Shown here: in pieces, positions 27,104 to 44,147 of the stretch
Layout of the letters: the number at the start of each line of letters is the position of its first letter
How positions within the stretch are numbered: position 1 is the first letter of the stretch
Assembly (NCBI GenBank): GCA_902779055.1
Contig: CACZAD010000004.1
Location: forward strand, 1-64,000
Length of the DNA: 64,000 nt
Source of the DNA: Fibrobacter succinogenes
GTDB lineage: Bacteria > Fibrobacterota > Fibrobacteria > Fibrobacterales > Fibrobacteraceae
Direction of reading: 5' to 3'
Program-made: the position numbers and the translations under genes
The notes under the pieces: model-generated
Seen by the model: the letters and a program-made list of their open reading frames with translations, nothing else
Database searches by the model: none
What the model was told of the DNA's origin: nothing

Positions 27104-28543
27104 TTAGTCGAGCTTGATTTTCTTGAGGCTCGTAATGCCTGAGTTCTTGACACGCACAACATAGAGGCCGCTCGGTACGCCTTGCAGCGAAACAGAGACA
27201 GAGCCTGTTGCGTGCTTGTCGAAAGACTTCAACACGCTACCCGTCATGGAGATCAAGTCCACGCGGACGTTGCCGTTCACATCGAGCTGGAGCGTTCTAC
27301 CGGCAAGAGTCATCTTCGGAGCGTGAGCCTGCACAGCTGTCAAAGATGTCGGATTCTGGCTGGAGCTGGACTCCGGAACCACGGAACTCGAGGATCCCGG
27401 CTGCGAAGGCGTTGCAGCGGCAAGGTTCGGCATATTGCCCGAAACGAGGAGACCGTTCAAAAGCTTGAGCGACTGGTTGAAGTAGTTTTCGTCACCAAGA
27501 GCGACTGCTTCGGCCCAGTATTCGTCGAGCTTGGACTGATACTTGGCATCAGAGATGAGCGACGTCATGAGGGACGTCACGAACGTGCTGTTGTGATCGT
27601 TGCCGAGGCTGCCAGACGATCTGAGGACAGGGCCCTTCATATTTGCGGCACTGACCGTAGAAACGAATTCAGCCATCTTCTTATCGAGAGCGAGAGCGCG
27701 TTTATCGCCGTGCCAGCAGACAGCCTTTGCATTACGCCACGGAGCGCGGGAAGCATCATAGCTGTAGTAGTCGTCTTCGCTCTTGCCGTTCTTATCGGTC
27801 CAGTCATCAATGAGGCCCGTCGTCACTTCGGCAGAGCTGGCTTCGTAAAGCTTCATGTTGGCATCGTATGCGGATTCGCTCCAGAAGGTCGCGTTTTCCG
27901 TATCGACCAAGGCAAAAAGTGGCATATAGGCCGGGTCAAAATAGCCCGGGTTCTTGCGGTTAAAACCGGCATCGCCCCACTTGTCGCCCGGCAAATGCAA
28001 GCCAGAAGATTCAAACTCATAGTTTTTCATGGACTGAATGAGTTTCTTAGCGTCTTCCTTGTACTTTTCGTCACCAAACTGGTAGTAAGCCATCACGAGA
28101 GCGGCAGCGGCATCGATATCACCATCAAGAGCGGCACCCTTGTCGTAAGCCTGGTTGAGGTTACCGACCTTCCAGACCATCAAGCCGTTTTCGTTCATCA
28201 TCTTCTTGTAAAAATTCCAAATCTTGTCGAATTGCGGCTGATAGCTTGTGGTATTGTCGCTAAAGTAGACCATCAGAAGCATGCCGTAGCCGACACCTTC
28301 GGAGAAGTATTCGTTGGAACCGGGGTCAGAACGCACACCGGCAACATCGCCGTCTTCGTTGTACATGGTCTTGAGCCAGTAGGCAAACTGGGATTTCAAT
28401 TCTTCGGAAGCCTTGGCCTTGTCGCTCAAAAGCGTCGCATTTCCACCGTAATCGGACATCTGCGGGAACGGGAAGTTCACCTTAGCCTGAGCAATTCCAA
28501 AAGCAAAGAGGCCAGCCAAGCCCAATTTTGCCAAACGATTCAT
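27104..28543 (-). CDS. Secreted glycoside hydrolase family 8 endoglucanase/xylanase
   Basis: A 479-residue enzyme with signal MNRLAKLGLAGLFAFGIAQA and AGGAG ten bases before the ATG. The GH8 (alpha/alpha)6 barrel spans about residues 22-370: SNEYFSEGVGYGMLL holds the general acid Glu (near 80), AALDGDIDAAAALVMAYYQF the key Asp pair (near 138), and YSYDASRAPWRNA the aromatic/Arg motif. A short SSSSVVPESSSS linker leads to an 80-residue Por-type sorting tail (NVRVDLISMTGSVLKSF, GLYVVRVKNSGITSLKKIKLD). GH8 enzymes cut beta-1,4-glucan, xylan or chitosan; the substrate is not decided by these motifs. It is transcribed alone. Confidence 0.92.
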   Translation of the reverse strand: MNRLAKLGLAGLFAFGIAQAKVNFPFPQMSDYGGNATLLSDKAKASEELKSQFAYWLKTMYNEDGDVAGVRSDPGSNEYFSEGVGYGMLLMVYFSDNTTSYQPQFDKIWNFYKKMMNENGLMVWKVGNLNQAYDKGAALDGDIDAAAALVMAYYQFGDEKYKEDAKKLIQSMKNYEFESSGLHLPGDKWGDAGFNRKNPGYFDPAYMPLFALVDTENATFWSESAYDANMKLYEASSAEVTTGLIDDWTDKNGKSEDDYYSYDASRAPWRNAKAVCWHGDKRALALDKKMAEFVSTVSAANMKGPVLRSSGSLGNDHNSTFVTSLMTSLISDAKYQSKLDEYWAEAVALGDENYFNQSLKLLNGLLVSGNMPNLAAATPSQPGSSSSVVPESSSSQNPTSLTAVQAHAPKMTLAGRTLQLDVNGNVRVDLISMTGSVLKSFDKHATGSVSVSLQGVPSGLYVVRVKNSGITSLKKIKLD

Positions 28544-28633: not shown

Positions 28634-30193
28634 TTAGAACCTTGTGCGGTCCATCACGACAAAAAGAGAGTCTCGGTACGCAACGTGCCAATTTTCGAGA
28701 GAATCAAGAGTCGTAAGCAGTTTACCCCAGCGGGCATAATAGCGGAGCGGCAGCACCACGCGGTCGATATTCTGCGTTTCCGCATCATCGAGGAACGTTT
28801 GCGGAGACTCGGCGTACTGCAAATATTTTTCGAAAAATTCCGCCGTTTTAAGGATAAAGCGCCCATCGATGTAGGTGGAATCGGAAGGATTCACAAAAGC
28901 CAAATAGCCCCCCGCACGGTCGTCATTAAAGAGATGCCCCGGATGCGGATGCGACTTCATCCATTCGGCTGCAGCGACAGGCACGCGCTGGTACGCGACC
29001 ATCGAATCGTAATTGGACTCGCTACGCAGCCAAAGGCCGAAAATGAAAGCAACGAGGAGAGTAGACAGCAGGAAGTAGGAAGTAGGAAGTAAACGGTTGG
29101 GCAAACGCAAAGGTTGAGTGTCGCGGCCATACATGCACTGGTATGAACGAAGCCATTTAACGCCTACTGCAAAAAATACCGGCAAGAACAGCACAAAATT
29201 GCGTTCGGCAACAAGCGCAAGAATCGCGGTCATAAATAGCCAAACCGATTCAGGACGGCGCAAGCGTAGAGCGCCAACGACAAGCCCCGCCACAGAAAGC
29301 ACGACCATCAACGTCGACTGCAAAACGTTCTCCCCCGCCATCAAAAGCGTAACCGGCGAACGGTTCTCCGCAATTTCGCTAGCAAAAACGGCAGCCGACG
29401 GAGAAAGCCCCAGCAACCGATCAAGCAAGCCAAACGGATACAGGAACAAGTTCAGGCCTTCATGATGGAAGAACGGCATCGCCAACAGAAGCGCCACAAA
29501 AGCGAAACGCAACAAAAGCAAATTGCGGGCCATTTGATGCCCAGAACCGCGCGAATTCCACCACTGCAAAGCAACCACAATCAGCGCAAAAATCGGACCG
29601 AGAATGTACAGCCCCTGAAACTTGCACCACAGCCATTGCACGGCAAGAACCGCGACCACCGCCACCACGGTTTTCGCAATGTTCCGCTTTCCATTCCAAG
29701 CACCACCATCAAAAAGCCACGGCAAAACCTTCCAGTACATACCGAGGAACAACAGCGAGAACAGCACCGGACGGATTTCAAACTGATAACGGAAAATGAA
29801 AAGGAGAAGGACGCAGGCCGCGACTTGCGCAATGACATTTATGCGGGAGTTCACAATGACGTCTTTTGAGGAGTTCGCGATGTTCTTTTTTTGCGCATCC
29901 GCAATGTTGCTCGAAGGCCACAGGAACAGCGCAAAAACGACTCCCCACAAAACCGCCTTGAACGCCACCAGCAAAGGCGCCCCACCAACATCATAGGCAA
30001 GCGCTACCGTCTGCTGAAAATACTCATGCACATTCACCACAGGTCCGCGCAGCGGGGTCCAGGTCGTCACCCACTCGCGCGCACAAGCCAAATGCCACCA
30101 GATATCGGTATCCGTCAACGGAAACACGGCAAAAAGCGCGACAACCGCACCAATCGCCAAAGCAAACGTTTTCGGGACCGAGATCAGACGCAT
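28634..30193 (-). CDS. Polytopic membrane protein, GT-C glycosyltransferase-like, end of the seven-gene operon
   Basis: A 519-residue protein with about ten membrane segments. Near the N terminus the outward loop TDTDIWWHLACAREWV matches the acidic D-x-D-x-W-W-H loop often seen in uncharacterised GT-C-type sugar transferases. The C-terminal soluble part contains HPHPGHLFNDDRAGGYLAF, DSTYIDGRF and VVLPLRYYARWGKLL, a common tail in the same group. It would transfer a lipid-linked sugar on the outer face of the cytoplasmic membrane, by inference. Its ATG overlaps the preceding stop (TGATG), so it is coupled to the last lipoprotein paralogue. A heptamer repeat encodes LLPTSYFLLST before one membrane segment. 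Confidence 0.65.
   Translation of the reverse strand: MRLISVPKTFALAIGAVVALFAVFPLTDTDIWWHLACAREWVTTWTPLRGPVVNVHEYFQQTVALAYDVGGAPLLVAFKAVLWGVVFALFLWPSSNIADAQKKNIANSSKDVIVNSRINVIAQVAACVLLLFIFRYQFEIRPVLFSLLFLGMYWKVLPWLFDGGAWNGKRNIAKTVVAVVAVLAVQWLWCKFQGLYILGPIFALIVVALQWWNSRGSGHQMARNLLLLRFAFVALLLAMPFFHHEGLNLFLYPFGLLDRLLGLSPSAAVFASEIAENRSPVTLLMAGENVLQSTLMVVLSVAGLVVGALRLRRPESVWLFMTAILALVAERNFVLFLPVFFAVGVKWLRSYQCMYGRDTQPLRLPNRLLPTSYFLLSTLLVAFIFGLWLRSESNYDSMVAYQRVPVAAAEWMKSHPHPGHLFNDDRAGGYLAFVNPSDSTYIDGRFILKTAEFFEKYLQYAESPQTFLDDAETQNIDRVVLPLRYYARWGKLLTTLDSLENWHVAYRDSLFVVMDRTRF
29062..29092. repeat. Heptanucleotide tandem repeat inside a coding sequence
   Basis: TAGACAG, CAGGAAG, TAGGAAG, TAGGAAG, TAA on the plus strand. 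It lies within the minus-strand membrane protein gene, where it is read as residues LLPTSYFLLST without breaking the frame. Other copies of this family in the window are intergenic. Confidence 0.75.
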
Positions 30194-32949
30194 CACTTCA
30201 AAGTCTTCAACAGAGAATCCAGGCGATGCGCCATGATTATAGCACCAGAAAGCCCGAGATGATCTTCATTTGCAAAATCTTCATAGGCAAAGTCATGGTG
30301 GCCATAATGGTTTTCATCAAGCACTGCAAAATGCGGATACCTTTCGGTAAGTTCCATCACCGCCTTTTCCATGATTTTCACCGCTTTGTGCGTCGGTCCA
30401 TAACGGCCCCAACTGAACGATGTCGCAAAGTAAGGCGACTGCGGATAAACCACACCGACCACCTTAACATCATAATTGAGAGCGAGTTCCAAGATGTCAA
30501 TCAGCTTTTGCAAGTTAAAATCAAACCCGGTTTTGTCCACGTCAAACCAAAGCGGGTCATTGGCCACCTCAGGAGGATCTTCGCCCCAGCCCACAGTAGG
30601 AGACTTGTACAGGCCGCGGTGGTATCCATACAATGCATATTCGCCTTCGGTCGGATTCAAGGCTTCCTGTGCAGCCTTGTTCATATCGCCAATCACACCA
30701 TCTTGCCAATAGCCGTGATTCTTGTCGTACTCATATCCCGGAATATCGGCAAACCAGGCCTTAAAATTTTCATCCTTGACATACCAACGGTCATAATCCA
30801 AAGTCAAGACAATCACCTTCAACTTAGGCATCAAGGGCAGATAGTAATTCTTGATAAAGAAGTATGTACTTGCCATATCCTGTGCGGCGTAAGACATATT
30901 GACGCCAAAACCGCTTTCGATATACTCGACATCCATACCCGAGAACGATCTCGAAGATCCGATGACAACAATCTCTGTCGAGTCCTTGTACTGCCAGAAG
31001 TAATCCATCTTGACCTTCATCAGGCGCGTAGCGATATCGGATGTTTCGGTCATATAGACGCAGGCGCTATCGGGATCCAAAGCCATGTTTCCATTTGACG
31101 GTTCAACAGTCTTTACCCACAAGCTGGGGTGCCACAGTTCTTCGCCCTCGGCAAGCTCCACGACTGAACTATCGGACAAATTCACAAGGACAATTTTCGT
31201 ATGCGACTTATTGATGTTCGTGAGCGTGGCCACCACAAGGTTTTCGCCACCCGTAGTCCATTCGCTATGGTCAAAAGTATAACCGTTCGGAGCCGCAAAA
31301 GAGTTCATGAGCTTTCCGTCAGCATCAACCATAAGCAAGCGTTCGTGCGTGTCGTACTCCTTGCCCACAAATTCCTGCCCCGTTTTTCCACCAAAGTCGA
31401 GGAACAAGGTTCGTTTTGAACCATCCTTTGCCAAGGAAGCGTTGCAAGCCTGTTCACCATTGTACCAGACGGTATCGCGAGCTTTTGAAGTAACGGTAGA
31501 GCCCGACTTGGCCACACGGGCGCGCAAAAGACGGGCACCGGTCACAGCAAGCGTGTTATCTTCACTGATGCCACCGTGGTAAGCCCCATCAAAAAGCTTT
31601 TCGGGCTTGCCAAACTTGCCATTCGCAAACTTGACCTGCCATGTAGAAGCCGATTCAAACGAGGCTTCTTTTTTATTGTCGCCCGCATCCGTCACATAGA
31701 CGATGACCGTATCGCCATTGTCAAGGACTCGCCAACGCGGGATCGCGGCACTTTCAACATCGAGTTCGACAAGGCCAGAACCCGTCGCATTGAAGTCACG
31801 GACATACACCTTCGACTCTCTCGAAACCCCTTCCCAACTTGTGCAGAACGCCACACGCTTCCCGTCGGGAGAAATTTCAGGATGGAAGACCTGCATAGAA
31901 TCAGTAATTTCAGTAACAGAGAGAATACCGCTAGAATAGTCGATAAAAGCGAGATTCCCTGTCATATCATTGCGGAACGCGAGCTTTACCTTATATGTTC
32001 CCGTCAGCGAACGCATCATTGCGGAATTGGCCAACGGAACGATTCGGCTCGTTGCCGCCTTGCCATCAGCCCCCATCCAGGTCGCATTCGGAATGGCACC
32101 AAAAGCGAGACGGAAGCCAACATATTCAGCACGGGTCGAAGATGTCACTGTGTAGACATCACCACGTCCATACAGGGTAATGGATTCAGGAGAATTGCGG
32201 TAGCTTCCGCCCTTGACGACACGTTCACCCAAGGAACCCCCATCAGGAGCGCCCACAAAGTTCGTCAAAGTCGTATCACGGAAATTGGCGGGCCAGTCGT
32301 TCACCCATTCCATCGCATTTCCGAACAGATCGCAGAACTTGCTTCCGGAATTATTCTTGCTACAGACTTTGTGCAGCTTGTAATCCGAATTTTCGGCAGT
32401 CCAGCTCTCGGACATTTTCGCATAATTCTTTGCAACAAGCACCCATTCCGCCTCGGTCGGCAAGCGGTACGCATCGACATCCGGATGGAACGCAAAACCG
32501 TCCAAGTTCGTGCAGTGATTGTCCTTATCGAAAGACGCCTTGCTGTAGGTGTACGCCGTATCGAGCTTTTCGGACTTGCTGCGTTCATTCGCAAAAAGTA
32601 CCGCATCGTAATAAGTGATATCGGTTGCAGGCACATCCTTGTCGCAATCAAGCTTAAGACCAGTAGAAGATTTCATCAAGTCGTTGAACTCGCTACAAGT
32701 CACCTCGTGTTCGCCAATCGAAAAATCGTAATTCAAGGAGACCTTCATCTGCGGGCGTTCACTGGCCCTTGCAGAAACGTCATTCGAGCCCAACGCGACA
32801 ACGTTGTTACTCGCAGAAACGCGGACAAGGCCCGAAAGCGAATCTGGCGAGACATCCGGCTTAGACCGATTCGACGAAACGCCATCAGAGCAAGACGTCA
32901 TCTGCGACAGGACAAAAAACAAGACAAAACTATAACGCAAACAATTCAT
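30193..32949 (-). CDS. Three-domain lipoprotein (FGE-like, PD40 propeller, SGNH-like), paralogue 1 of 4
   Basis: 918 residues. The lipobox is SQMTSC. Residues 45-285 form a formylglycine-generating-enzyme/SUMF1-type fold: FSIGEHEVTCSEFNDLM, RLPTEAEWVLVAK, NAMEWVNDW, VVKGGSYRNS, YVGFRLAFG. The two catalytic cysteines of true FGE are absent. Residues 320-640 are a PD40-type propeller (FHPEISPDGKRVAFCT). Residues 655-918 look SGNH-like: GSSRS (near 664), VIVLTLDYDRWY, and DENHYGHHDF with NEDHLGLSGA (near 894). I take it for a member of the Fibrobacter family TIGR02171, function unknown. GAGG overlaps the stop of the previous paralogue three bases upstream. Confidence 0.85.
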   Translation of the reverse strand: MNCLRYSFVLFFVLSQMTSCSDGVSSNRSKPDVSPDSLSGLVRVSASNNVVALGSNDVSARASERPQMKVSLNYDFSIGEHEVTCSEFNDLMKSSTGLKLDCDKDVPATDITYYDAVLFANERSKSEKLDTAYTYSKASFDKDNHCTNLDGFAFHPDVDAYRLPTEAEWVLVAKNYAKMSESWTAENSDYKLHKVCSKNNSGSKFCDLFGNAMEWVNDWPANFRDTTLTNFVGAPDGGSLGERVVKGGSYRNSPESITLYGRGDVYTVTSSTRAEYVGFRLAFGAIPNATWMGADGKAATSRIVPLANSAMMRSLTGTYKVKLAFRNDMTGNLAFIDYSSGILSVTEITDSMQVFHPEISPDGKRVAFCTSWEGVSRESKVYVRDFNATGSGLVELDVESAAIPRWRVLDNGDTVIVYVTDAGDNKKEASFESASTWQVKFANGKFGKPEKLFDGAYHGGISEDNTLAVTGARLLRARVAKSGSTVTSKARDTVWYNGEQACNASLAKDGSKRTLFLDFGGKTGQEFVGKEYDTHERLLMVDADGKLMNSFAAPNGYTFDHSEWTTGGENLVVATLTNINKSHTKIVLVNLSDSSVVELAEGEELWHPSLWVKTVEPSNGNMALDPDSACVYMTETSDIATRLMKVKMDYFWQYKDSTEIVVIGSSRSFSGMDVEYIESGFGVNMSYAAQDMASTYFFIKNYYLPLMPKLKVIVLTLDYDRWYVKDENFKAWFADIPGYEYDKNHGYWQDGVIGDMNKAAQEALNPTEGEYALYGYHRGLYKSPTVGWGEDPPEVANDPLWFDVDKTGFDFNLQKLIDILELALNYDVKVVGVVYPQSPYFATSFSWGRYGPTHKAVKIMEKAVMELTERYPHFAVLDENHYGHHDFAYEDFANEDHLGLSGAIIMAHRLDSLLKTLK

Positions 32950-32952
32950 ATT

Positions 32953-35769
32953 TTACCTCATATTTTTCAACAACGAATCCAGACGAGACGTAAACTTTGC
33001 GGCACCCAGAGTACTTAAATGATCCCTGTTCGTCGCCATTTCATCCGTATAATCGTGATCCCCCATCTTGTTCTCGTCCCAGAAAACAAAATGAGGATAT
33101 TCCTGCTGGAGTTTTTCCAGTTCCGCAAGCAAAGCAGGCGCTTCGCTCCTACGGATACCGTATCTTCCGAACGAGCCCGTCTTTTTAAAGTTAGGACTTT
33201 GCGGGAAGACGACACCAACAACATAAATGCCCTGATTTTCAGCTTCCTGCAAGATATTCTTCAGATGCCCGAAGCTAGCATAATAATTCGACGACCTGGA
33301 CGACATCCAAGTGCTGTCATAATCCACAGCCGGCTTCGTTTCCCAAGAATTCGGATCTTCACCGTTATAGCCCATCGCATCCGTAAGATGCTGACGGAAA
33401 TAGTCGTTGCCCAGGGATTCTTCGGTCAAACGAGCCAGTTCTTCAGGGAAACCGTCCTTCCAAAAATTGTGGTTTCGGTCATAAACGTAACCCGGATAAT
33501 TTTCATATTCGCTAAGGAAGAAGTTGTAGGAGGATTCACTTTCTGGATGATACCACAAATCAATATCCAACGAAATGACAATGTACTTCAGGTTTTTCGT
33601 ATGCGGGATGACGTAATTCGTCAAAAGGTATTCGGAGCCCACCATCATATTCGGGACATTCGCAAGATTGATGGCAAAGAGCGGCTTTTCGATTGCCCTG
33701 GGGTCAATTCCGTTCAGGCATCTAGACGATCCGACAATAACGACATTGGCCGAATCCTTGTACTTCCACAACAATTCCAATTTATAGCGGAGGAAAATCG
33801 CAGCTTCGCCACCTTCGGGCGTAAAATACACACCGGCACTGTCCAGGTCAAGAGAGCCGCCATTGTATGCGGCAGCACCATCATTCACCCAGAGGCACGG
33901 ATGCCACAAAAGGTCTTCGCCCTCGACAAGTTCCGTGATCTTGCCATCCGAAAGATTGACAAGCACAATTTTCAACAATGCGCCATTCGCATTAGCAAGC
34001 GACGCCACAATGAAGCCCCCCTTTTCTTCGGAGCTTTTATAATTCAGCACCCATTCGGTATGGTCGAACGTGAATCCGTCGGGAGCGGCCACAGACTGGA
34101 TGAGCTTACCGGTAGAATCGGCAATGAACAAGTGTTCATGAGCCCTATACTTGGAGCCGACAAAAGCCTTGCCCGTCTCGCTTCCAAAATCCAGAAACAC
34201 CGTGCGCTTGCTGCTATCGCCCGCAAGCGAAACGTTACAAGCCTGTTCGGAATTATACCAAAACTCGTCGCTAGCCTTTCCTGTAACGGTCGAGCCCGAC
34301 TTCGCAATGCGTGCGCGTAAACGTCGAGCCCCCGAAACCGCAAGCGTCCTGTCTTCGCTGATGCCGCCGTGATAAGCGCCATCAAAAAGCTTTTCCGGCT
34401 TGCCGAACTTTCCTTTTGCAAACTTCACCTGCCATGTAGATGCGGCCTTGAACTTGTCATCCTTCTCGTTATTTCCCGCATCCGTCACATAGACGATAAC
34501 CGTATCGCCGTTTTCCAGAACGCGCCAACGCGGGATGACTGCATTTTCGACATCCAGCTTTACGAGGTTCGATCCTTCGGCATTCAAGTCACGCACATAC
34601 AGTTCCGATTTACCAGAAAGGCCCTCGTACCTCGTGCAAAAAGCGACCTTCTTTCCGTCCGGCGAAATGTCGGGATGATAGGCGTCAAGCGAATCGTTTA
34701 TTTCGGTTACGGAGAGAATTCCGTTTGAATAATCGACATAAGCCAAATTATTGGTATAGCCATTACGGAAAACCAGCTTTGCCCTATGAGATCCCAACAA
34801 CGAACGCATTGTCGCAGAACTGGCAAGCAACACCATACGGTTCGTCGAAGCCTTGCCATCAGAACCCATCCACGTGGCATCCGAAATGGCTCCGTACGCC
34901 AGGCGGAAACCCACATAATTGGCACGGGTCGAAGAAGTCACCGAATAAATGTCACCACGATTGTAGATATGGATAGACTCGGTCGAATTGCGGAAGCTCC
35001 CCCCCTTTACAATTCGCTGGTCCATGGCACCGCCATCTGGCGCACCCACATAATTCGTCAGGGACGTATCACGGAAATTTCCAAGCCAGTCATTCACCCA
35101 TTCCATCGCATTTCCGACCATATCGCAAACGCCGTCTTTAGACTTGGCCTTGCTACACACCTTGTGCGACTTGTAATCCGAATTGTCGGCAGTCCAGGCT
35201 TCGGATGGTTTCCAATACTTTTGGGCGACAAGCGTCCATTCCGCTTCTGTCGGCAGGCGGTACGCATCGACATCGGTATGGAACGTAAAGCCATCCAAGT
35301 TCGTGCAATGCTTATCCGCATCAAACGAGGCCTTGTTATAGGTATAGGTCGTATCGAACTTTTCGGCCTTGCTACGGGCATTCGCAAAAAGTACCGCATC
35401 GTAATAGGTCAAATCCGTTGCAGGCAAGCTGTCATTGGAGCAATCCAGCACAAGCCCGGTCACTTTTTTCATCAGCGAATTGAATTCGCCACAAGTGACC
35501 TCATGCTTGCCCATCGAAAAGTCATAATCGATAAAGACCTTCATCTGCGGGCGTTCATTGGACTTTGCAGAAGACTCATCGGTACCGAGCGTGACCAAGG
35601 CTTGCTTAGCATTCACCCGCATCATTCCCGAAAGCGAGTCCGTCGAGAACTCCACCTTCGAGCCGTCCGACGAAGCGCTACTCGGTCCGTCCGAACACGA
35701 CGTCACAAGAAGCAAAGCCGATACAGACACGCTCCAAAGAAAACACTTTTCCAAACCCTTAAACATCAT
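32953..35769 (-). CDS. Three-domain lipoprotein (FGE-like, PD40 propeller, SGNH-like), paralogue 2 of 4
   Basis: 938 residues from ATG 35769, favoured because GGAGG sits seven bases upstream; ATG 35775 overlaps the previous stop as ATGA but has only one base of spacing. The lipobox is LLVTSC. Domain order equals paralogue 1: FSMGKHEVTCGEFNSLM through YVGFRLAYG, propeller with YHPDISPDGKKVAFCT, then SGNH-like GSSRCLNG (near 678), IVISLDIDLWYH and DENKMGDHDYTDE with NRDHLSTLGA (near 914). The middle domain is very close to the other copies, while the SGNH-like part is more divergent. Translation is probably coupled to its neighbours on both sides. Confidence 0.85.
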   Translation of the reverse strand: MMFKGLEKCFLWSVSVSALLLVTSCSDGPSSASSDGSKVEFSTDSLSGMMRVNAKQALVTLGTDESSAKSNERPQMKVFIDYDFSMGKHEVTCGEFNSLMKKVTGLVLDCSNDSLPATDLTYYDAVLFANARSKAEKFDTTYTYNKASFDADKHCTNLDGFTFHTDVDAYRLPTEAEWTLVAQKYWKPSEAWTADNSDYKSHKVCSKAKSKDGVCDMVGNAMEWVNDWLGNFRDTSLTNYVGAPDGGAMDQRIVKGGSFRNSTESIHIYNRGDIYSVTSSTRANYVGFRLAYGAISDATWMGSDGKASTNRMVLLASSATMRSLLGSHRAKLVFRNGYTNNLAYVDYSNGILSVTEINDSLDAYHPDISPDGKKVAFCTRYEGLSGKSELYVRDLNAEGSNLVKLDVENAVIPRWRVLENGDTVIVYVTDAGNNEKDDKFKAASTWQVKFAKGKFGKPEKLFDGAYHGGISEDRTLAVSGARRLRARIAKSGSTVTGKASDEFWYNSEQACNVSLAGDSSKRTVFLDFGSETGKAFVGSKYRAHEHLFIADSTGKLIQSVAAPDGFTFDHTEWVLNYKSSEEKGGFIVASLANANGALLKIVLVNLSDGKITELVEGEDLLWHPCLWVNDGAAAYNGGSLDLDSAGVYFTPEGGEAAIFLRYKLELLWKYKDSANVVIVGSSRCLNGIDPRAIEKPLFAINLANVPNMMVGSEYLLTNYVIPHTKNLKYIVISLDIDLWYHPESESSYNFFLSEYENYPGYVYDRNHNFWKDGFPEELARLTEESLGNDYFRQHLTDAMGYNGEDPNSWETKPAVDYDSTWMSSRSSNYYASFGHLKNILQEAENQGIYVVGVVFPQSPNFKKTGSFGRYGIRRSEAPALLAELEKLQQEYPHFVFWDENKMGDHDYTDEMATNRDHLSTLGAAKFTSRLDSLLKNMR

Positions 35770-35771
35770 CG

Positions 35772-38480
35772 TCATTCCTCCAACGTTGACAACAATGAAT
35801 CCAACCGATGCGTAAGCTTTTTGGCCCCCTTGATGCTTAAATGATCCGAGTTCCGAGCTTCATCATCGGTGTAGTCATGATTACCGTTTCTATTTTCATC
35901 CATCAAAATAAAGTTGTCGTACCTTTTTTGAAGTTCTACTACAGAATCAAGAACTTCGGCCGCGACAGAGCGTCGTGGACCATAACGGCCCCAGGTTCCG
36001 GTCTCGCGATAACGCGGATTCTGCGGGAATACAACCCCGATAATCTTGATGTCCGAAGATTCCATTTCGTTAAGGAAATTCTCCAAGATGTTTAAATTCC
36101 AGGAGAGATTTTCAAGGCGATCTTCGGGCCAGAGCGAATCTTTTTCGATGATGGGTGTACCCCATTCAACCGTGGGATTACCGAGATGGCCGCGGGATTC
36201 TTCGTAAGCTTCTCTTGCATACTCAGAATAATTCGTTGCATTTTCAACAGCATACAAAAATCCATTCGGCAAGCCATCCTTCCAGAACAAATGTTTTGTA
36301 TCGTAGACATATCCCGGCAATAGCGGGAATATGATGTCCGAGAAATCGGTGCTGCTAATCCATAGATCGATATCGATGGCGACAACGATGTACTTCAGCT
36401 TTTTCAAGTGTCTCACACCGTAATTCTGAGCCACAAACAAGCTTGCATTCAAGTCGTTTCCCATATGTCCCAAATTCATGGTGTAACCCGTCTTCATTTC
36501 CAATGGGATAATCGAGCATTCAACTCTTGAACTGCCAACGCCTAGAATTTCAATTTCATCCATATGCTTCCACATCTGCGTGATCTTGAACCCTAGCGAT
36601 TCATACATCCAATCCTGGCCTTCGATATAGTACACCCCAACGCTATCAAGATTAAGGAGGGAATTGTCCAGCGAAGTTACTTTATCCTTCACCCACAGGC
36701 ACGGATGCCAAAGTTCATCACCTTCAACAAGGTCTACAATCGAACTATCCGTCAGCTGGACCAGCACAATTCTTTGATGCGCCCCGTTGGCATTCGCAAG
36801 TGTCGCCACCGCCATGTTCGCACCCCCTAAAGCCCATTCGCTATGGTCAAACGAATAGCCCTCAGGAGATGAAACCGACTGGATCAATTTTCCTTTTTTA
36901 TCCATCACGAGCAAACGTTCATGAGTTCCGTAGCCGGAGCCGCCAAAATCAAGGAACAAAGTCCGCTTACTGCTATCCTTGGCAAGCGAGGCATTGCAAG
37001 CTTGGTTGCCGTCATACCACACCGTATCCACCGCTTTTTCAAGAACAGTCGATCCCGATTTGGCCATACGGGCACGTAAAAGACGGGCGCCCGAAACAGC
37101 GAGAGTGTTGTCTTCGCTAATCCCGCCATGGTAAGCTCCGTCAAAAAGCTTTTCGGGCTTGCCGAATTTTCCATTCGAGAACTTCACCATCCACGTCGAA
37201 GATGATTTGAAAGTCGCCTCGTTTTTATTGTTTCCGGCATCCGTAACATAGACTATAACGGTATCGCCATTTTCGAGGACACGCCAACGCGGAATGGCAG
37301 CACTTTTGACATCCAGCCGGACAAGGTTCGAGCCCGATTCGTTCAAATCGCGTACATACAGTTCGGACTTGCCCGAGACGCCTTCCAACCCCGTACAGAA
37401 CGCCACCTTGCTACCATCAGGCGAAATATCCGGATGATAGACATCCAGCGTATCGACAATTTCACTGACCACAGGAGAACGGTTGGAATAATCGATAAAG
37501 TCCAGATTCTTTGTGACATCATTGCGGAACGCGAGTTTGACTTTATAAGTTCCCGTCATAGAACGCATTCTCGAAGACGACGCCAACGAAAGGACTCGAG
37601 AGCCTACGACATTTCCGTCGCTCCTCATCCACGTGGCATCAGGGATTTTCCCAAATGCAAGACGGAACCCCACATAATACGAAAGCGTAGATGACGTCAC
37701 CGTATACACATCACCGCGACTGTAAGGCTTGATGGTGGATGCCAAATTGCGGAAACTGCCGCCCTTCACGATGCGCAGGCCCAACGAGCCACCATCGGGT
37801 GCCCCCACATAGTTCGTCACGGTCGTATCGTTGAAATCGCCAAGCCAGTCATTCACCCATTCCATCGCATTTCCGTACAAGTCGCACACCCTGAATAAAG
37901 ATATGCTGCACGGTGTATGCAATTCGTAATTCGAGTTATCAGCCGTCCACGAACGCTCCAGATTTCCGTAAGCCTTCGCCACCAGCATCCATTCGGCTTC
38001 GGTCGGCAAGCGATAGGCTATAACTTCGGGATGAAACGCAAAGCCCTCCAGGCTGATGCAATGATTCGCGTTATCAAACTGCGCACTCACGTAGGTGTAA
38101 GCTGTATCAAAACCCTCAGCCTTGCTCCGCTCATTTGCAAAAAGCACTGCATCGTAATAAGTCAAGTTCGTCGCCGGAAGATCCTTGCTCACGCATTCCA
38201 GGGAAAGTCCAGTCGCCGATTCCATCAACGCATTAAATTCTCCGCACTGCACTTCTGCCTTGCCGATCATGAAATCATACGTTATGGAAACACGCATTTG
38301 TGGGCGTTCATTGACGTTCGCATTGGAATCATTCGTGCCAAGCGTCACCACCGCCCCGGACGACCTGATCGATTCCATTCCGACCAAGTCATAAAAGGCA
38401 GAACCACTTTCAGATGACGACAAGCCATCGAAACAAGCGCACAAAGTAACCACAAATGCTAGAAGAACAAAACGAAACAT
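35772..38480 (-). CDS. Three-domain lipoprotein (FGE-like, PD40 propeller, SGNH-like), paralogue 3 of 4
   Basis: 902 residues from ATG 38480, chosen for GGGAG upstream and signal MFRFVLLAFVVTLCAC. It has FMIGKAEVQCGEFNALM, then GNAMEWVNDW, GGSFRN and YVGFRLAFG without FGE cysteines. The propeller contains YHPDISPDGSKVAFCT. The linker after it is about eight residues shorter than in the other copies (LDFGGSGYGTHERL). The SGNH-like end has GSSRVECS (near 647), IVVAIDIDLWIS and DENRNGNHDYTDDE with NSDHLSIKGA (near 880). It begins 11 bases after the stop of paralogue 4 and ends in a four-base ATGA overlap with paralogue 2. Confidence 0.85.
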   Translation of the reverse strand: MFRFVLLAFVVTLCACFDGLSSSESGSAFYDLVGMESIRSSGAVVTLGTNDSNANVNERPQMRVSITYDFMIGKAEVQCGEFNALMESATGLSLECVSKDLPATNLTYYDAVLFANERSKAEGFDTAYTYVSAQFDNANHCISLEGFAFHPEVIAYRLPTEAEWMLVAKAYGNLERSWTADNSNYELHTPCSISLFRVCDLYGNAMEWVNDWLGDFNDTTVTNYVGAPDGGSLGLRIVKGGSFRNLASTIKPYSRGDVYTVTSSTLSYYVGFRLAFGKIPDATWMRSDGNVVGSRVLSLASSSRMRSMTGTYKVKLAFRNDVTKNLDFIDYSNRSPVVSEIVDTLDVYHPDISPDGSKVAFCTGLEGVSGKSELYVRDLNESGSNLVRLDVKSAAIPRWRVLENGDTVIVYVTDAGNNKNEATFKSSSTWMVKFSNGKFGKPEKLFDGAYHGGISEDNTLAVSGARLLRARMAKSGSTVLEKAVDTVWYDGNQACNASLAKDSSKRTLFLDFGGSGYGTHERLLVMDKKGKLIQSVSSPEGYSFDHSEWALGGANMAVATLANANGAHQRIVLVQLTDSSIVDLVEGDELWHPCLWVKDKVTSLDNSLLNLDSVGVYYIEGQDWMYESLGFKITQMWKHMDEIEILGVGSSRVECSIIPLEMKTGYTMNLGHMGNDLNASLFVAQNYGVRHLKKLKYIVVAIDIDLWISSTDFSDIIFPLLPGYVYDTKHLFWKDGLPNGFLYAVENATNYSEYAREAYEESRGHLGNPTVEWGTPIIEKDSLWPEDRLENLSWNLNILENFLNEMESSDIKIIGVVFPQNPRYRETGTWGRYGPRRSVAAEVLDSVVELQKRYDNFILMDENRNGNHDYTDDEARNSDHLSIKGAKKLTHRLDSLLSTLEE

Positions 38481-38491
38481 CAACAAACTCC

Positions 38492-41338
38492 CTATTTCTT
38501 CTGTTCCAAGGACAGCAAAAGTGTATTCAGGTGATTTGTCAGCACGCCAGCACCGGTAGAGCAAAGATGATCCTCATCTATAGCCATCTTGTCCGAATAG
38601 TTGTGGTCTCCCATTTTATTTTCGTCCAACAGAACAAAATTGGGATACTTCTTACTCAATGCGTCAATTTCACTTATCAGCTTTTTGGCAGTCGAGCGGC
38701 GCAACCCATAACGGCCAAAAGCTCCAGTTTCGGCATACGCAGGGCTCTGGGGAAAGATCACACCCACGACACGGATATCCCTTTCGGCCGCTTCCTTGAT
38801 GATGGACAAAAGAGCATCCATGCTGTCGTCGATCAAGTTGTGGTGAACATCCAGATAATTGCTATCCAGCTCGATTTCGGGATTTTCGCGCCACGATGCG
38901 CAAGTCGGCTTGGTATAGCGGCCACGGTCCTTCATATAAAAGCTTTCGTCTGACGACCCGACAGAATTTTCGGTATATTCCAGAAGTCCATCAGGGATTC
39001 CGTCCTTCCAGTAATCATGATTCTTATCGTACTCATATCCCGGATAATTAAGGAAATTCGTATAGAACATATTATCGCCATCCGGTCCGTCAACCTTATG
39101 CCAGAAATCAATATCCAGCGAAATGACCAAGTACTTCAACTTTTTAAAATGGTTGAAGACGTAATTATCCAAGAAGTCCCGGGTCATATAAATTGAATTC
39201 GGAGTCTGTGCCAAATTCACCGCGAAAAAGCGATTGTCGAAAAGGGACGGGCTAACGCCCAGCATCGGCCTTGACGACCCCAGGATTGCCACATTGGCCG
39301 TATCGTGATACTTCCAAAGAAGTTCCATCTTGAAGCGCATGATGACCGAAGCCCACTCATCCGATGGACGCAAGTAAATACCGGCACTATCGGGATCCAG
39401 CTTCGATGATTCCGGAATATAAACTTTCTTGCGCCAAATGCTTGGGTGCCAAACTTCATCCGCTTCGACCAAGTCAATAATATCGTCCGTCTTCACATTG
39501 ACGAGAACCACCTTGGAATGGGCTCCACTCTGATTCGTAAGCGTAGCCACAATAAAGCCTCCTTCCGGATCAGAATCCTTATAGTTCAACGCCCACTCGG
39601 TGTGGTCAAAGCTGTAGCCCTCCGGAGCGGGAATAGCCTTTACAAGACGTCCCGTGCTATCGGCAATCAGCAACCGTTCATGGGTTCCGTAACTTTCGCC
39701 CACAAATTCGGCCCCCGTCTTTCCACCGAAATCGAGGAACGCCACACGCTTAGAGCCGTCATTTGCAAGGGACACATTGCAAGCCTGCTCGCCGTCATAC
39801 CACACGGTATCGCGTCCATCCGCAAGCGTCTTCCCGGCCTTGGCGATACGCGCACGCAACAACCTCGCGCCCGTCACGGCAAGCGTATTGTCATCAGAAA
39901 TGCCTCCATGGTACGCGCCGTCAAAAAGCTTTTGCGGAGTGCCAAAACGCCCTTTGCTGTACGTCACCTGCCATGTACTCTTCGACTTGAACGAAGCATT
40001 ATCCTTGTTGTTCCCGGCATCCGATACATAGACAATCGCCGTATCTCCGTTTTCGAGCAAGCGCCAACGCGGAATAGCCGCATTCCCCTTCGCCTTGACC
40101 TTCAGCGGTTTTGGATTGTACGCCGACAACGCGCGGACATAGACATCCGATTTTCCGGACACGCCCTCCATACCGGTACTGAAAACAGCAAGCCTTCCAT
40201 CGGGAGAAATATCAGGATGGTAGACCTCCAGGGTATCCGTAATTTCGACAACCGAAAGGTTTCCGTTGAGATACTCGATGTACGCCAAGTTGCCGCTCAC
40301 ATCATTACGGAATGCAAGCTTAACCTGATACGTACCCAGATCATTCTTGACGGCAGTGGCACTAGCCACAGGGACAATTCGGCTAGCACGCGCACGTCCA
40401 TCGTGCCCCATCCAAATGGCATCTGGAATTTTTCCGAACGCAATGCGGAATCCCAGGTACTCCGACTTTGCCGCCGAAGTCACCACATAGACATCGCCTC
40501 GATTATGGAGCTTGATTGTGGACGGTTCGTTGCGGTAGCTGCCACCCTTGATAATGCGTTCGCCAAGCACACCCCCATCAGGAGCGCCCACAAAATTCGT
40601 GATCGTCGTATCCCTGAAATAGCCAAACCAGTCCGAGACCCATTCCTTCACGTTTCCGCCCATATCGCAAAAATCACCGTGCAAGCGGGCGTACGAACAA
40701 ACATTTTTCGGTTCAAAGCCAGAATTCAGGGCATTCCATTCCGCAGACGGATTCCAGTCGCGCTCGGCAGCCAGAATCCATTCAGCTTCGGTTGGCAGGC
40801 GATATGCATCGACTTCGGGATGATAGAGGACACCTTCCATCGAAATGCAGTTTCCCTGGGCATCAAACACCGTCGAAGTATAAGAATAAGCGGTATCGTA
40901 ACCTTCGCGTTTGCTCCTTTCATTGACAAAAAGAACTGCATCGTAATACGTCACCTTAGTCACGGGAAGCAAATCGGAATCTTCGCCACGGCAACGCTCG
41001 TCAAAGGTCGTCCCCATCATCTCCCTGAATTCGGCACAGGTGACTTCGTGCATTCCTATAGAAAAGTCATAATTCAGAACGGCTCGCAGTTGTGGGCGCT
41101 CGCTAGACTTTGCACTCGTCATATACGTTCCCAAATGCGCAATGGCACCGCCACTTGAATTTCGAATCTTCGAAGCCTTGACGACGATTAGCCCATCATG
41201 GGCTGCATCCAATTCTACCGGAGCGTGCAACCAGACATGGTCGCCAAAAAAGGTATCACATCCCGAAAAAACAAAAATGATGGCAACAAAAAAAGGAACC
41301 CACCAGACAAAATGAGAATGTATAGAACGCGTCGACAT
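38492..41338 (-). CDS. Three-domain lipoprotein (FGE-like, PD40 propeller, SGNH-like), paralogue 4 of 4
   Basis: 948 residues from ATG 41338. The lipobox is FVFSGC. It is the first of the four in transcription order and the most divergent: FSIGMHEVTCAEFREMMGTT, GNVKEWVSDWFG, GGSYRNEPS, YLGFRIAFG. The propeller carries YHPDISPDGRLAVFST. The SGNH-like end has GSSRPMLG (near 687), LVISLDIDFWHK and DENKMGDHNYSDK with DEDHLCSTGA (near 922). About 96 bases separate it from the transglutaminase-like gene upstream, the largest gap in the operon, so an internal promoter is possible; none is obvious. Confidence 0.85.
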   Translation of the reverse strand: MSTRSIHSHFVWWVPFFVAIIFVFSGCDTFFGDHVWLHAPVELDAAHDGLIVVKASKIRNSSGGAIAHLGTYMTSAKSSERPQLRAVLNYDFSIGMHEVTCAEFREMMGTTFDERCRGEDSDLLPVTKVTYYDAVLFVNERSKREGYDTAYSYTSTVFDAQGNCISMEGVLYHPEVDAYRLPTEAEWILAAERDWNPSAEWNALNSGFEPKNVCSYARLHGDFCDMGGNVKEWVSDWFGYFRDTTITNFVGAPDGGVLGERIIKGGSYRNEPSTIKLHNRGDVYVVTSAAKSEYLGFRIAFGKIPDAIWMGHDGRARASRIVPVASATAVKNDLGTYQVKLAFRNDVSGNLAYIEYLNGNLSVVEITDTLEVYHPDISPDGRLAVFSTGMEGVSGKSDVYVRALSAYNPKPLKVKAKGNAAIPRWRLLENGDTAIVYVSDAGNNKDNASFKSKSTWQVTYSKGRFGTPQKLFDGAYHGGISDDNTLAVTGARLLRARIAKAGKTLADGRDTVWYDGEQACNVSLANDGSKRVAFLDFGGKTGAEFVGESYGTHERLLIADSTGRLVKAIPAPEGYSFDHTEWALNYKDSDPEGGFIVATLTNQSGAHSKVVLVNVKTDDIIDLVEADEVWHPSIWRKKVYIPESSKLDPDSAGIYLRPSDEWASVIMRFKMELLWKYHDTANVAILGSSRPMLGVSPSLFDNRFFAVNLAQTPNSIYMTRDFLDNYVFNHFKKLKYLVISLDIDFWHKVDGPDGDNMFYTNFLNYPGYEYDKNHDYWKDGIPDGLLEYTENSVGSSDESFYMKDRGRYTKPTCASWRENPEIELDSNYLDVHHNLIDDSMDALLSIIKEAAERDIRVVGVIFPQSPAYAETGAFGRYGLRRSTAKKLISEIDALSKKYPNFVLLDENKMGDHNYSDKMAIDEDHLCSTGAGVLTNHLNTLLLSLEQKK

Positions 41339-41434
41339 ATCTTCACAAAAATAGATTTTTAGGGGCTTCAAAACCAACGAAAAAAGCCGGTAAAAAGCGT
41401 AATAAACCCATTTTTGGAAGATGTAAGAAAAAAA

Positions 41435-42157
41435 CTATAAAGAATCCGGCAAACGGCTTTTGGCCACAGCCTGATTAGCCGAAATTCCTGGATAATTTGG
41501 GAAAAATTCTTCGGCCATCCGGTACCACATAAGTGCTTGCGGAGGTTCCGATTCTAGGTACAAATTTCCGATATCGAAAGCCGCAAGGCCGATAAATTCA
41601 CGAGGTTTCAGGGGTTTAAATTCAAGCCCCGTCCAACGTCCATTCTTATACTTTTCGCGATATTCCTCGTCCGTGTACGTATACCCACGACGGTTAGGTT
41701 CCAAGTTTACAGGAGCATCCGAAGATCCGTAACGCAAAAAAACGTGCCCAGGCAAAAGGACAACATCCAGCGGCAAATGGTAAACCTCAGCCACCATGAG
41801 CACAAGCCACGAAAGCCCCATGCACCCGGACTTTTTCTGTTCGAGAACGCGGAGCGGAAGCACGGCCTCTTTGGCGACAGCCGCATCACCCGCGCCAGCA
41901 AATTCGATATTCCAAAAACTCCACAACAAGCTTTTGAGGGAATTCAGCGTATCGTGAGTCGCAGCGACACTGCTATCAAAGTAAGCAAGTCCCGCCTTCC
42001 AATCGTCGATGGAATCCAGGCACGAAGGCGCACGTTCTTCGAACGTGCAAGCCATTTCGCGATAGCTCACGGACTCGCCCTTGCCATTCCAAAGCAGAAA
42101 CGGGAGCGCAATCACGAGCGTCGCTAAGAATATCGGCCAAAAGAAACGCGCAAGCAT
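41435..42157 (-). CDS. Membrane-anchored transglutaminase-like (SirB1-type) protein
   Basis: 240 residues. An N-terminal membrane anchor (FFWPIFLATLVIALPFLLW) precedes an extracytoplasmic domain. A papain/transglutaminase-type triad can be proposed: Cys in KKSGCMGLSWLVLMVAEV, His in LPGHVFLRYG and the following Asn/Glu in PVNLEPNRRGYTYTDEEY. The same arrangement occurs in SirB1-type transglutaminase-like proteins, which may be peptidases, cross-linkers or inactive folds. The end looks like a TPR-type helix pair (PPQALMWYRMAEEFFPNYPG). It lies 16 bases after the AlgX-like gene in the same operon. Confidence 0.7.
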   Translation of the reverse strand: MLARFFWPIFLATLVIALPFLLWNGKGESVSYREMACTFEERAPSCLDSIDDWKAGLAYFDSSVAATHDTLNSLKSLLWSFWNIEFAGAGDAAVAKEAVLPLRVLEQKKSGCMGLSWLVLMVAEVYHLPLDVVLLPGHVFLRYGSSDAPVNLEPNRRGYTYTDEEYREKYKNGRWTGLEFKPLKPREFIGLAAFDIGNLYLESEPPQALMWYRMAEEFFPNYPGISANQAVAKSRLPDSL

Positions 42158-42173
42158 AAATGCGCCGGAAAGG

Positions 42174-44147
42174 CTAGATTCCGTCCCATTCCATCGGGCT
42201 CTGCCAGAAGTCGCGTGCCGTCATCATATAAATTACGAGACGTTTGCTCTGCATATCCTTCTTCATCTTTTTCAGGCGGGCGCGGACACCGGGGCCACCG
42301 CCCCAGCTAGTAAGCACCTGGACGTCAAGCCCTGTCGCAAAAGCGAGGAGAGAGCCCGGGCCACCGCTCTTCTGGTCCACTGATTCGAACACGCCCGTAA
42401 ACGAGTCGCCCATCAAGAGGATCGGAGCATTTTTGCCACCCTTGTAAGCCTTGTCGCCCTTGTAAATTTTCATACCGGCAAGCGTATCGGCCGGATACTT
42501 GGACTTTTCCTTGTCCGACAAATGAGCCACAAGATCGCCTTCGCGAAGAACAACAGTATCCTTCATCGTAAGGGTTCCCGGCTGCGGCTTGGCATCAGCA
42601 TACCAGCTGTACTGCGTCACACGGGACGCGAGCTGTTCCATAGCGGCAAGCATACCCGGCAAGGCCCAGTGCGTATCGTAGCGCTGGTAGCTGAAATGCG
42701 GAGCTTCGTCACCTGCACGAGCAGCCATCAAGGACGGATAGAGATCCAAAACATCAATCCCTGCCGCAAGCAGTTCACGGATAAATTCACGGCCGTTCAC
42801 ATTCACGCACAAGTCCGCAGGAGTACCCTTCACAAGCTTGTCCGCATAGATTTCTTCTTTTACCGGAACAGGGACCACCAACAGCTGGATGTTCAGAGAA
42901 TCCAGATACTGCTTGAGTTCAACCATTCTCGGAAGCGGGTTGTGCAGGCTATCCTGAGCGCTGATCTTATCGGCAACAAGGTAGTTGGCGTTGCGGCGGA
43001 ACCAGAGCATTCCGTTATCTGACCAGGCGTTCTGTTCCTTCGGGAGTTTTGCCAGCTTTTTCTTCAAGGCTTCGCGGAACTTCTTGGTCGCAGGCGTTGC
43101 AGGGCAGCTGTTCTCGAGCGAAGCAAGCGTTTCGAGACGGGCATACGAACTCGTATCAAGCGTACGGTCGACAGGAACGACTTCGCCAGCGGCCGCAAGG
43201 GAATCCGCTACGGCATTGGCACGCAACTGTTCGTCGGTCAAGCTGAATGCAGGCACTTCAAAGGCCACCCACATCGGGTGCCCCATCGGGTTACCACGCA
43301 TCACGGCAAACGGACGGTTCACACGGGAATTCTCCCAGATGGCACCCGGAGTATGTTGTTCCAAATCGGTATTCAAGGTCGGATACCAGTAAGACGAAAG
43401 CGTGCGGGCCCAGTTCATAGCCTCTTCGCCGTTCATCTCGGCAGTCATGTAGTTGTTCAGGACTTCAGCCGATTCACCGCCGGAGACAACCTTAAGCTTT
43501 CCATAGAACGGAGCGCGTCCCGTCCACATCGCCGGCATGACTTCGACCCACCATTCAACCTTGCCCTTGTTTTCGCCCGTTCCCGGCACACCCCACAAAC
43601 GGGTGACCGTCTGGAACGCACGGAAGACTTCAGGTTCATCCCATTTAACGGCTTCCACTTCATTCAGGGTCTTTGCAAACGTATCGTCCCCCGTCTGCGC
43701 ATAGAGAATCTTGGAGAACGGTTCCCACGCAATCGGAGCGATCCCGGCAACGGCTTCGGGCTCATAATCGACAATGGAATCGAGCATCGGGAACGGATAT
43801 TCTTCAATCTTTGCGTTCACCATCTTGCCCATGTAGTTTTCGGGCTTTTCGTCCATACCCGCCATACGGATGGGGTTAGCAAAGTAGGCCGCAAAGTCAA
43901 GTGCCGCAAAAGTCGGCTTGCTCACGACACGAACCTGCTTGTCGTAATCAAGGATTCGCATTTCAAACACTGCGACAGGAGATGCAGACGGGAACGTCGG
44001 GAGATTCGGACGTCTCGGAGGCATCTTAGAATCCATTTTTTCGACATCGGCTTTGACGTTTGTAGATGGAGCCGCACAGGATGCAGCAAGGAACAGACTT
44101 GCAGAAAGACCTGCAAGGCAAAGAATAGAAGTAGATAATTTTTTCAT
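42174..44147 (-). CDS. AlgX/AlgJ-like SGNH lipoprotein, probable polysaccharide O-acetyltransferase, first gene of the operon
   Basis: 657 residues from ATG 44147. The signal has lipobox FLAASC. The N-terminal half (about 40-330) is a domain I cannot name. The C-terminal half resembles the SGNH-type domain of AlgX/AlgJ: WFRRNANYLVADKI, LNIQLLVVPVPVKEEIY, RYDTHWALPGM (Asp-x-His near 489) and ILLMGDSFTGVFE (Ser near 578), which together give a Ser-His-Asp set. AlgX-type enzymes add acetyl groups to exported polysaccharide. The usual acyl-donor partner AlgI/MBOAT is not in the window. The gene is divergent from the TM2 gene across a 92-base gap that must hold both promoters. Confidence 0.75.
   Translation of the reverse strand: MKKLSTSILCLAGLSASLFLAASCAAPSTNVKADVEKMDSKMPPRRPNLPTFPSASPVAVFEMRILDYDKQVRVVSKPTFAALDFAAYFANPIRMAGMDEKPENYMGKMVNAKIEEYPFPMLDSIVDYEPEAVAGIAPIAWEPFSKILYAQTGDDTFAKTLNEVEAVKWDEPEVFRAFQTVTRLWGVPGTGENKGKVEWWVEVMPAMWTGRAPFYGKLKVVSGGESAEVLNNYMTAEMNGEEAMNWARTLSSYWYPTLNTDLEQHTPGAIWENSRVNRPFAVMRGNPMGHPMWVAFEVPAFSLTDEQLRANAVADSLAAAGEVVPVDRTLDTSSYARLETLASLENSCPATPATKKFREALKKKLAKLPKEQNAWSDNGMLWFRRNANYLVADKISAQDSLHNPLPRMVELKQYLDSLNIQLLVVPVPVKEEIYADKLVKGTPADLCVNVNGREFIRELLAAGIDVLDLYPSLMAARAGDEAPHFSYQRYDTHWALPGMLAAMEQLASRVTQYSWYADAKPQPGTLTMKDTVVLREGDLVAHLSDKEKSKYPADTLAGMKIYKGDKAYKGGKNAPILLMGDSFTGVFESVDQKSGGPGSLLAFATGLDVQVLTSWGGGPGVRARLKKMKKDMQSKRLVIYMMTARDFWQSPMEWDGI

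Follow-up and report, generated by a model that had tools for sequence, protein, structure and literature searches.

Candidate surface-glycan O-acylation operon with paralogous TIGR02171 lipoproteins in Fibrobacter succinogenes

Introduction

Three bacterial systems in which a membrane-bound O-acyltransferase (MBOAT) acts with partners of the SGNH fold stand closest to the locus described here. In peptidoglycan O-acetylation by PatA and PatB, PatA acetylates itself on the tyrosine of its C-terminal FXYXXF motif and from there supplies the SGNH partner; the motif is common to other SGNH-partnered MBOATs (PMC12148441). The alginate system of Pseudomonas, AlgI-AlgJ-AlgF-AlgX, combines one MBOAT bearing the tail motif with two AlgX-like SGNH proteins of the Asp-x-His...Ser type, the catalytic residues being D174/H176/S269 in AlgX and D190/H192/S288 in AlgJ (PMC4148444). 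D-alanylation of teichoic acid by DltB, DltX and DltD likewise joins an MBOAT, an SGNH protein and a tyrosine shuttle motif. We analysed a 64,000-nucleotide stretch of Fibrobacter succinogenes (contig CACZAD010000004.1 of assembly GCA_902779055.1, positions 1 to 64,000; hereafter the window) that contains a block of seven minus-strand genes coding for an AlgX/AlgJ-like SGNH lipoprotein (A), a membrane-anchored transglutaminase-like protein (B), four lipoproteins of the NCBIfam family TIGR02171 (C1 to C4), whose family model gives no function, and a membrane protein of predicted GT-C fold (D). We propose that the block probably forms the periplasmic and outer-membrane half of an MBOAT-SGNH system, common to the Fibrobacterota, by which an exported surface glycan is O-acylated.

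This system shares with that of alginate a single MBOAT with its tail motif, two AlgX-like SGNH proteins (A and a second protein, AlgX1, encoded elsewhere) and, sometimes, a small preceding exported protein that is possibly AlgF-like in position. Unlike the alginate system, the block holds no alginate genes, B, D, a secreted PD40 propeller protein and the TIGR02171 set are additional, and A carries its SGNH domain at the C-terminal end without the C-terminal carbohydrate module of AlgX. With D-alanylation it has in common an MBOAT that resembles DltB by profile, C-terminal domains of the TIGR02171 proteins (the heads) that resemble DltD, and the tyrosine shuttle motif; here, however, the motif is fused to the MBOAT and the heads sit on lectin-propeller lipoproteins, and no DltX microprotein was identified, no search having been aimed at one. 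The pairing of an FXYXXF-tailed MBOAT with an SGNH partner is also that of PatA-PatB, from which the present system differs in its two AlgX-like partners, its many paralogous heads and the GT-C enzyme in the operon.

Results

A reading of the window made from sequence alone had noted the absence of an MBOAT donor gene as a weakness of the O-acetyltransferase interpretation. None is indeed present in the window, but a search of the genome located an AlgI/DltB-like MBOAT on another contig (G000:C34:59114-60529; Pfam MBOAT, 4.2e-26), which matches the DltB model at 1.5e-43, under that model's cut-off. Its C-terminal tail, YNPFLYFQF, fits the acyl-shuttle motif; tails of orthologues read PFLYFQF throughout the family and at nine loci of four other families, and the histidine of the WHG motif is visible in the four orthologues printed. 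The AlgX1 orthologue of the same genome (G000:C1:5664-7352, 4e-116) carries DDTHW and GDSF, and AlgX1 orthologues at large carry DTHW together with GDSF or GDSY.

Beyond Fibrobacter, the donor is found beside the genes of the block. The order is c83-MBOAT-AlgX1-A-B-D in one sister genus (G146) and MBOAT-AlgX1-A-B-D-PD40 in another (G044), with a TIGR02171 gene 1.8 kb further on, and a Chitinispirillum contig reads c83-MBOAT-AlgX1-A-B-D-PD40. MBOAT, AlgX1 and A are adjacent in G038, G020, G031, G016, G022, G032, G002 and G015, often with PD40 and sometimes with D, and a single contig of G040 holds MBOAT, A, B, D and PD40. Given this linkage in other families, the operon of Fibrobacter appears to be what is left, after rearrangement, of an acylation operon found across the phylum, TIGR02171 genes having come to lie between B and D. 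Among 111 Fibrobacteraceae genomes, with MBOAT orthology set at 55% identity or above (remoter matches in g4, g9 and g11 excluded) and with kinship ignored in the counts, 73 have both A and the MBOAT and 33 have neither; the MBOAT occurs alone in five, which are 70-77% complete, and A alone in none. Fisher tests on these counts likewise take no account of kinship, and their values are not to be taken as probabilities. B and D give the same picture with the MBOAT. The two loci lie far apart (0.3 Mb in G105, for example), and joint absence is therefore not the result of one deletion.

Directly upstream of the MBOAT, here and in other families, lies c83 (L160:12534-12935), which encodes a small exported protein of about 133 residues with no Pfam match, a possible AlgF-like partner. 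A second MBOAT of 616 residues (L163:7403-9253; G000:C13:about 33400-35250) has a tail, FIYFQF, that also fits FXYXXF; its relatives of the 618-residue type occur in operon-less genomes, which suggests that it serves something else. The secreted PD40 propeller c59 (L157:7729-8940), whose counterpart ends the MBOAT-AlgX1-A operon in other families, is located near an orphan TIGR02171 gene.

The block itself recurs among relatives, from which 20-kb neighbourhoods were taken and the encoded proteins clustered. Genomes of the genus Fibrobacter arrange the genes as A-B-C(n)-D, where n ranges from 1 to at least 5; L089 has one additional C gene ahead of A. A named-genome search recovered the block from 40-odd Fibrobacter records, whole or clipped at contig ends. 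In Fibrobacter intestinalis ATCC 43854 the order is A-B-D-C-C-PD40, and beyond the genus the orders are A-B-D-C-C (g6) and A-B-C-D (g7). This recurrence, with a varying number of C copies, argues that the block is not a chance assembly. The window genome holds nine full-length TIGR02171 genes, four in the block and five scattered. Full-length relatives occur across the phylum Fibrobacterota, so the restriction of the family to Fibrobacter, as given in the sequence-only reading, proved too narrow; among 22 distant or odd genomes, all 15 with a full-length C gene also have A. Open frames of 1841-1988 residues surround TIGR02171 matches at G098:C2:110042-115534, G120:C59, G096:C14 and G072:C9:201307-207069; in G098 and G072, two full TIGR02171 copies lie head to tail and the frames have the same reported length, probably representing one uninterrupted frame.

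Protein A belongs to the Pfam family ALGX (PF16822), which it matches at 71 bits against a gathering cut-off of 26.5, and it matches AlgJ in the PDB (4o8v, 3e-4). The SGNH domain is preceded by a private N-terminal region of approximately 380 residues. Asp491 and His493 (DTHW) and Ser582 (GDSF) are invariant in 23 of 23 sequences, and Cys24 is kept in 22 of the 23. In type and order these residues match the AlgX and AlgJ sites (PMC4148444), and A is accordingly read from its sequence as keeping a complete AlgX-type Asp-His/Ser site.

The C proteins were described at the outset as sharing three domains, FGE-like (after formylglycine-generating enzyme), PD40 propeller and SGNH-like. All four lie far above the curated TIGR02171 cut-off of 544 bits (1160-1276) and match Pfam FGE-sulfatase (1e-20 to 1e-25); PD40 is weak in three of them and undetected by Pfam in C4. 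An AlphaFold2 model of C4, with a mean predicted local distance difference test (pLDDT) score of 92.8, places the FGE-like domain at about residues 45-290, a propeller at about 300-612 and an SGNH-like domain at about 636-918. In C4 numbering, all 90 heads have Ser666 and His897 and 89 have Asn684; position 896 is Asp in 78 heads, and position 894 is Asp or Asn in 89. Ser666 lies directly past the first strand of the alpha/beta domain of the model, Asn684 closes the second strand, and the Asp/His pair falls just before the last helix. The heads are thus modelled in the SGNH arrangement, with the Ser, Asn, Asp and His of such a site in place; judged by the order of structural elements in the C4 model, the GSSR and DHL motifs do not appear to be far apart.

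Several searches suggest that the C-terminal domain resembles DltD and not AlgX. When 48 heads were scanned with Pfam, the leading families were DltD (three members, best 5e-4) and DUF1574 (two members, best 5e-4), both of which are listed as SGNH families (PMC9487903). A DltD search of 168 genomes of the phylum gave 11 matches, all weak and short, spread over ten genomes. Ten of the 11 lie within open frames of 919-1008 residues, and the three that were placed by coordinates (G114, G139 and G105) coincide with the C-terminal end of TIGR02171 genes. The DltD (PF04914) gathering cut-off is passed by relatives in six genomes, over about 76-99 C-terminal positions; in the window C proteins, and anywhere in the window genome, Pfam finds no DltD match. 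Searching the PDB with the head sequence alone gave DltD as the sole match, sub-threshold at 0.46, and the 50 Foldseek matches listed for the whole C4 model are all FGE or propeller folds, with no SGNH fold among them.

The FGE-like domain matches PorK (3e-19), and its best structural match is TvpA of Treponema denticola (2y3c, 2e-13), a lipoprotein with an FGE-like lectin fold. A formylglycine-generating enzyme is rejected, as the catalytic cysteine pair after KGGS is absent and no cysteine occurs at 251-267 in 90 sequences; with these cysteines missing, the domain is more likely to serve in binding. TvpA is varied by a diversity-generating retroelement. In the C proteins, unlike TvpA, the FGE domain is constant and the variation lies in the SGNH head. 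Cysteine of the lipobox is followed by Ser or Thr in 65 of 90 C proteins, which by the E. coli sorting rule for that residue appears compatible with an outer-membrane location.

Scaffold and head have followed different courses. Between paralogues of one genome the FGE-like domain and propeller (the scaffold) average 60% identity and the head 36%, compared with 71% and 66%, respectively, for best matches in another genome. Clustering at 50% identity sorts the heads into 17 types, of which most occur no more than once in a genome. The trees unite the four scaffolds of G075 in one supported group while scattering its heads. Approximately unbiased tests rejected a common origin of the four G075 heads (6e-9) and the grouping of scaffolds by head types 1 and 8 (0.008 and 0.001), p-values that are optimistic, the groups having been picked after the trees were viewed. 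Along one G075 pair, identity is about 97% up to a point near residue 580-600, where it drops to 50%. Both gene conversion of the scaffold and exchange of heads explain this discordance, and the C family reads, by sequence comparison, as a constant scaffold fitted with exchanged heads. The suggestion that the C proteins are variants with different specificity fits this pattern of a constant scaffold with divergent heads that are conserved between orthologues.

For D, an AlphaFold2 model (mean pLDDT 82.8) agrees with the proposal of a GT-C-like membrane protein. Foldseek places it nearest to oligosaccharyltransferases in the PDB (STT3, 1.8e-5; AglB, 2.3e-5; PglB, 4.9e-4), within a top list of STT3, AglB, DPY19, PglB and ArnT that spans 1.8e-5 to 3.5e-3 at a template-modelling (TM) score of about 0.5, and the model therefore points to a GT-C fold with oligosaccharyltransferases as nearest relatives. 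Conservation across 21 sequences is complete or almost complete for DTDIWW (DxDIWW), which follows the first helix, and for IxEN, and DxRxGG is also conserved among them; we take the acidic motif and IxEN to resemble oligosaccharyltransferase loop motifs. D shares with STT3, AglB and PglB the fold and an acidic motif after the first helix. It differs from them in having no sequence-family match to oligosaccharyltransferases: Pfam, NCBIfam and PDB sequence searches gave no match to D, and the oligosaccharyltransferase WWDYG motif was not seen. Three residues of B, Cys112, His138 and Glu153, are the same in all 18 sequences compared.

The seven genes (Table 1) are packed essentially as the sequence-only reading had placed them, with spacings of +16 (A/B), +96 (B/C1), +11 (C1/C2) and +3 (C3/C4) and 4-base overlaps at C2/C3 and C4/D. 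Scans for promoters and terminators gave signals at chance level. The gene adjoining D (window 27104-28543) codes for a glycoside hydrolase of family 8 (GH8) that bears a type IX sorting tail (Por_Secre_tail); its nearby position is kept in many Fibrobacter genomes. A further gene (24428-26782) encodes a secreted protein of repetitive sequence, in which small domains recur and long linkers are rich in Ser; relatives of this protein flank the operon in other genomes.

Table 1. Genes of the block, in window coordinates
Gene	Product	Position	Strand	Support
A	AlgX/AlgJ-like SGNH lipoprotein, 657 residues	42174-44147	-	Pfam ALGX 1.6e-19
B	Membrane-anchored transglutaminase-like protein, 240 residues	41435-42157	-	Pfam Transglut_core2 1.4e-10
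C1	TIGR02171 lipoprotein (FGE-like, propeller, predicted SGNH head)	38492-41338	-	1160 bits
C2	TIGR02171 lipoprotein	35772-38480	-	1246 bits
C3	TIGR02171 lipoprotein	32953-35775	-	1276 bits
C4	TIGR02171 lipoprotein	30193-32949	-	1248 bits; AlphaFold2 model
D	Predicted GT-C-fold membrane protein, 520 residues	28634-30196	-	AlphaFold2 and Foldseek

Discussion

Our analyses revealed an MBOAT with a shuttle tail that co-occurs with A and is operonic with it in sister genera and other families, together with conserved sites in A and the C proteins, and they strengthen the proposal of an acylation system. We propose the following model. The MBOAT, encoded elsewhere, would draw on acyl-CoA for an acyl group (probably acetyl), which it would load onto the tyrosine of its C-terminal FLYFQF tail. 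AlgX1 and A would then carry the acyl group on their catalytic serines and ester-link it to the glycan, a step modelled on AlgJ and AlgX for alginate. D, as a GT-C enzyme, may supply the acceptor with sugar or with a lipid-linked glycan, and B may be a processing or anchoring factor. The C lipoproteins would bring different DltD-like SGNH heads on a lectin-fold and propeller scaffold, and could modify different acceptors or different positions. This last step is the weakest of the scheme, as the heads might either transfer or remove acyl groups.

Several observations weigh against this model. In most Fibrobacter genomes, unlike the alginate system, the MBOAT and AlgX1 are unlinked to the operon, so that their pairing there rests on co-occurrence, which may reflect few losses. 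B has no obvious role, and no genes for biosynthesis of an acceptor polymer were found in the block. The heads, for which an AlgX kinship had been entertained, show no detectable profile relation to A (probability 0.2%), and an AlgX origin is rejected; they could be esterases. In deep lineages the C genes are adjacent neither to A nor to the MBOAT, and C-like genes occur in three genomes that lack A (G066, G132 and G150). The concern that the paralogues might occur mostly without the AlgX-like and membrane genes is hence borne out in part, C lying apart from A in deep lineages and in five of the nine copies here, but the presence of A in 15 of 15 distant genomes with a full-length C gene speaks against it.

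Could the heads remove acyl groups rather than add them? As surface esterases, the C lipoproteins would bind glycan through the lectin-fold domain and propeller, and the head would strip acyl groups from the cell's own glycan or from plant polysaccharide. The many esterases among SGNH folds, the acetylated plant cell wall in which Fibrobacter lives, the presence of other acetyl-xylan esterases and the many C copies outside the operon are all in keeping with such a role. We nevertheless consider it rather doubtful, because the Pfam SGNH family nearest to the heads, DltD, is a transferase, because the C genes stay within the A-B-D operon throughout the genus, and because A accompanies full-length C in the distant genomes tested.

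Still less probable, in our judgement, is that the TIGR02171 genes are passengers, an unrelated family of surface receptors that was inserted between B and D of an old AlgX-MBOAT operon and then expanded. Deep lineages with MBOAT-AlgX1-A(-D)-PD40 lacking C, which is located elsewhere, would be expected from such an insertion, as would the genomes that have C and lack A. Yet the insertion has been maintained across the genus and three further genera of the family, C and A co-occur at the genome level, and C carries an SGNH head of its own with invariant Ser and His. Finally, that the C proteins are type IX secretion accessories akin to PorK and GldK, with the operon handling secreted cellulases such as the adjacent GH8 enzyme and its Por_Secre_tail, is rejected as very improbable: the GldK match reaches 27.9 bits against a cut-off of 350, short of curated membership, many FGE-fold proteins besides PorK match, the spirochaete TvpA best, and PorK leaves the propeller and the SGNH head unexplained.

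On the acylation model, what is the relevance of the exchanged heads? We speculate, tentatively, that Fibrobacter maintains a shuffling repertoire of acyl-modifying enzymes, in which the body is homogenised within each genome and old SGNH heads are swapped, giving every strain surface acylation specificities of its own, a combinatorial coat code served by one MBOAT donor. The scaffold/head pattern would be an unusual case of enzymes diversifying by modules in a setting other than toxins and phage receptors.

In the open-access literature searched, we found neither a description of such an operon nor a paper with TIGR02171, and nothing relevant on Fibrobacter with MBOAT or with glycosylated cellulose-binding proteins. 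Our best reading is of a real, conserved block belonging to a previously undescribed system of the MBOAT-SGNH acylation type, with a new structural assignment for TIGR02171. The family would thereby gain a testable function, with donor, partners and active site named and the head assigned to the SGNH fold, and a surface-glycan acylation operon would be common to much of the phylum Fibrobacterota. Since the surface carbohydrate of Fibrobacter, major degraders of cellulose, is altered on that substrate (PMC4619616), decoration of the cell surface may bear on adhesion to fibre.

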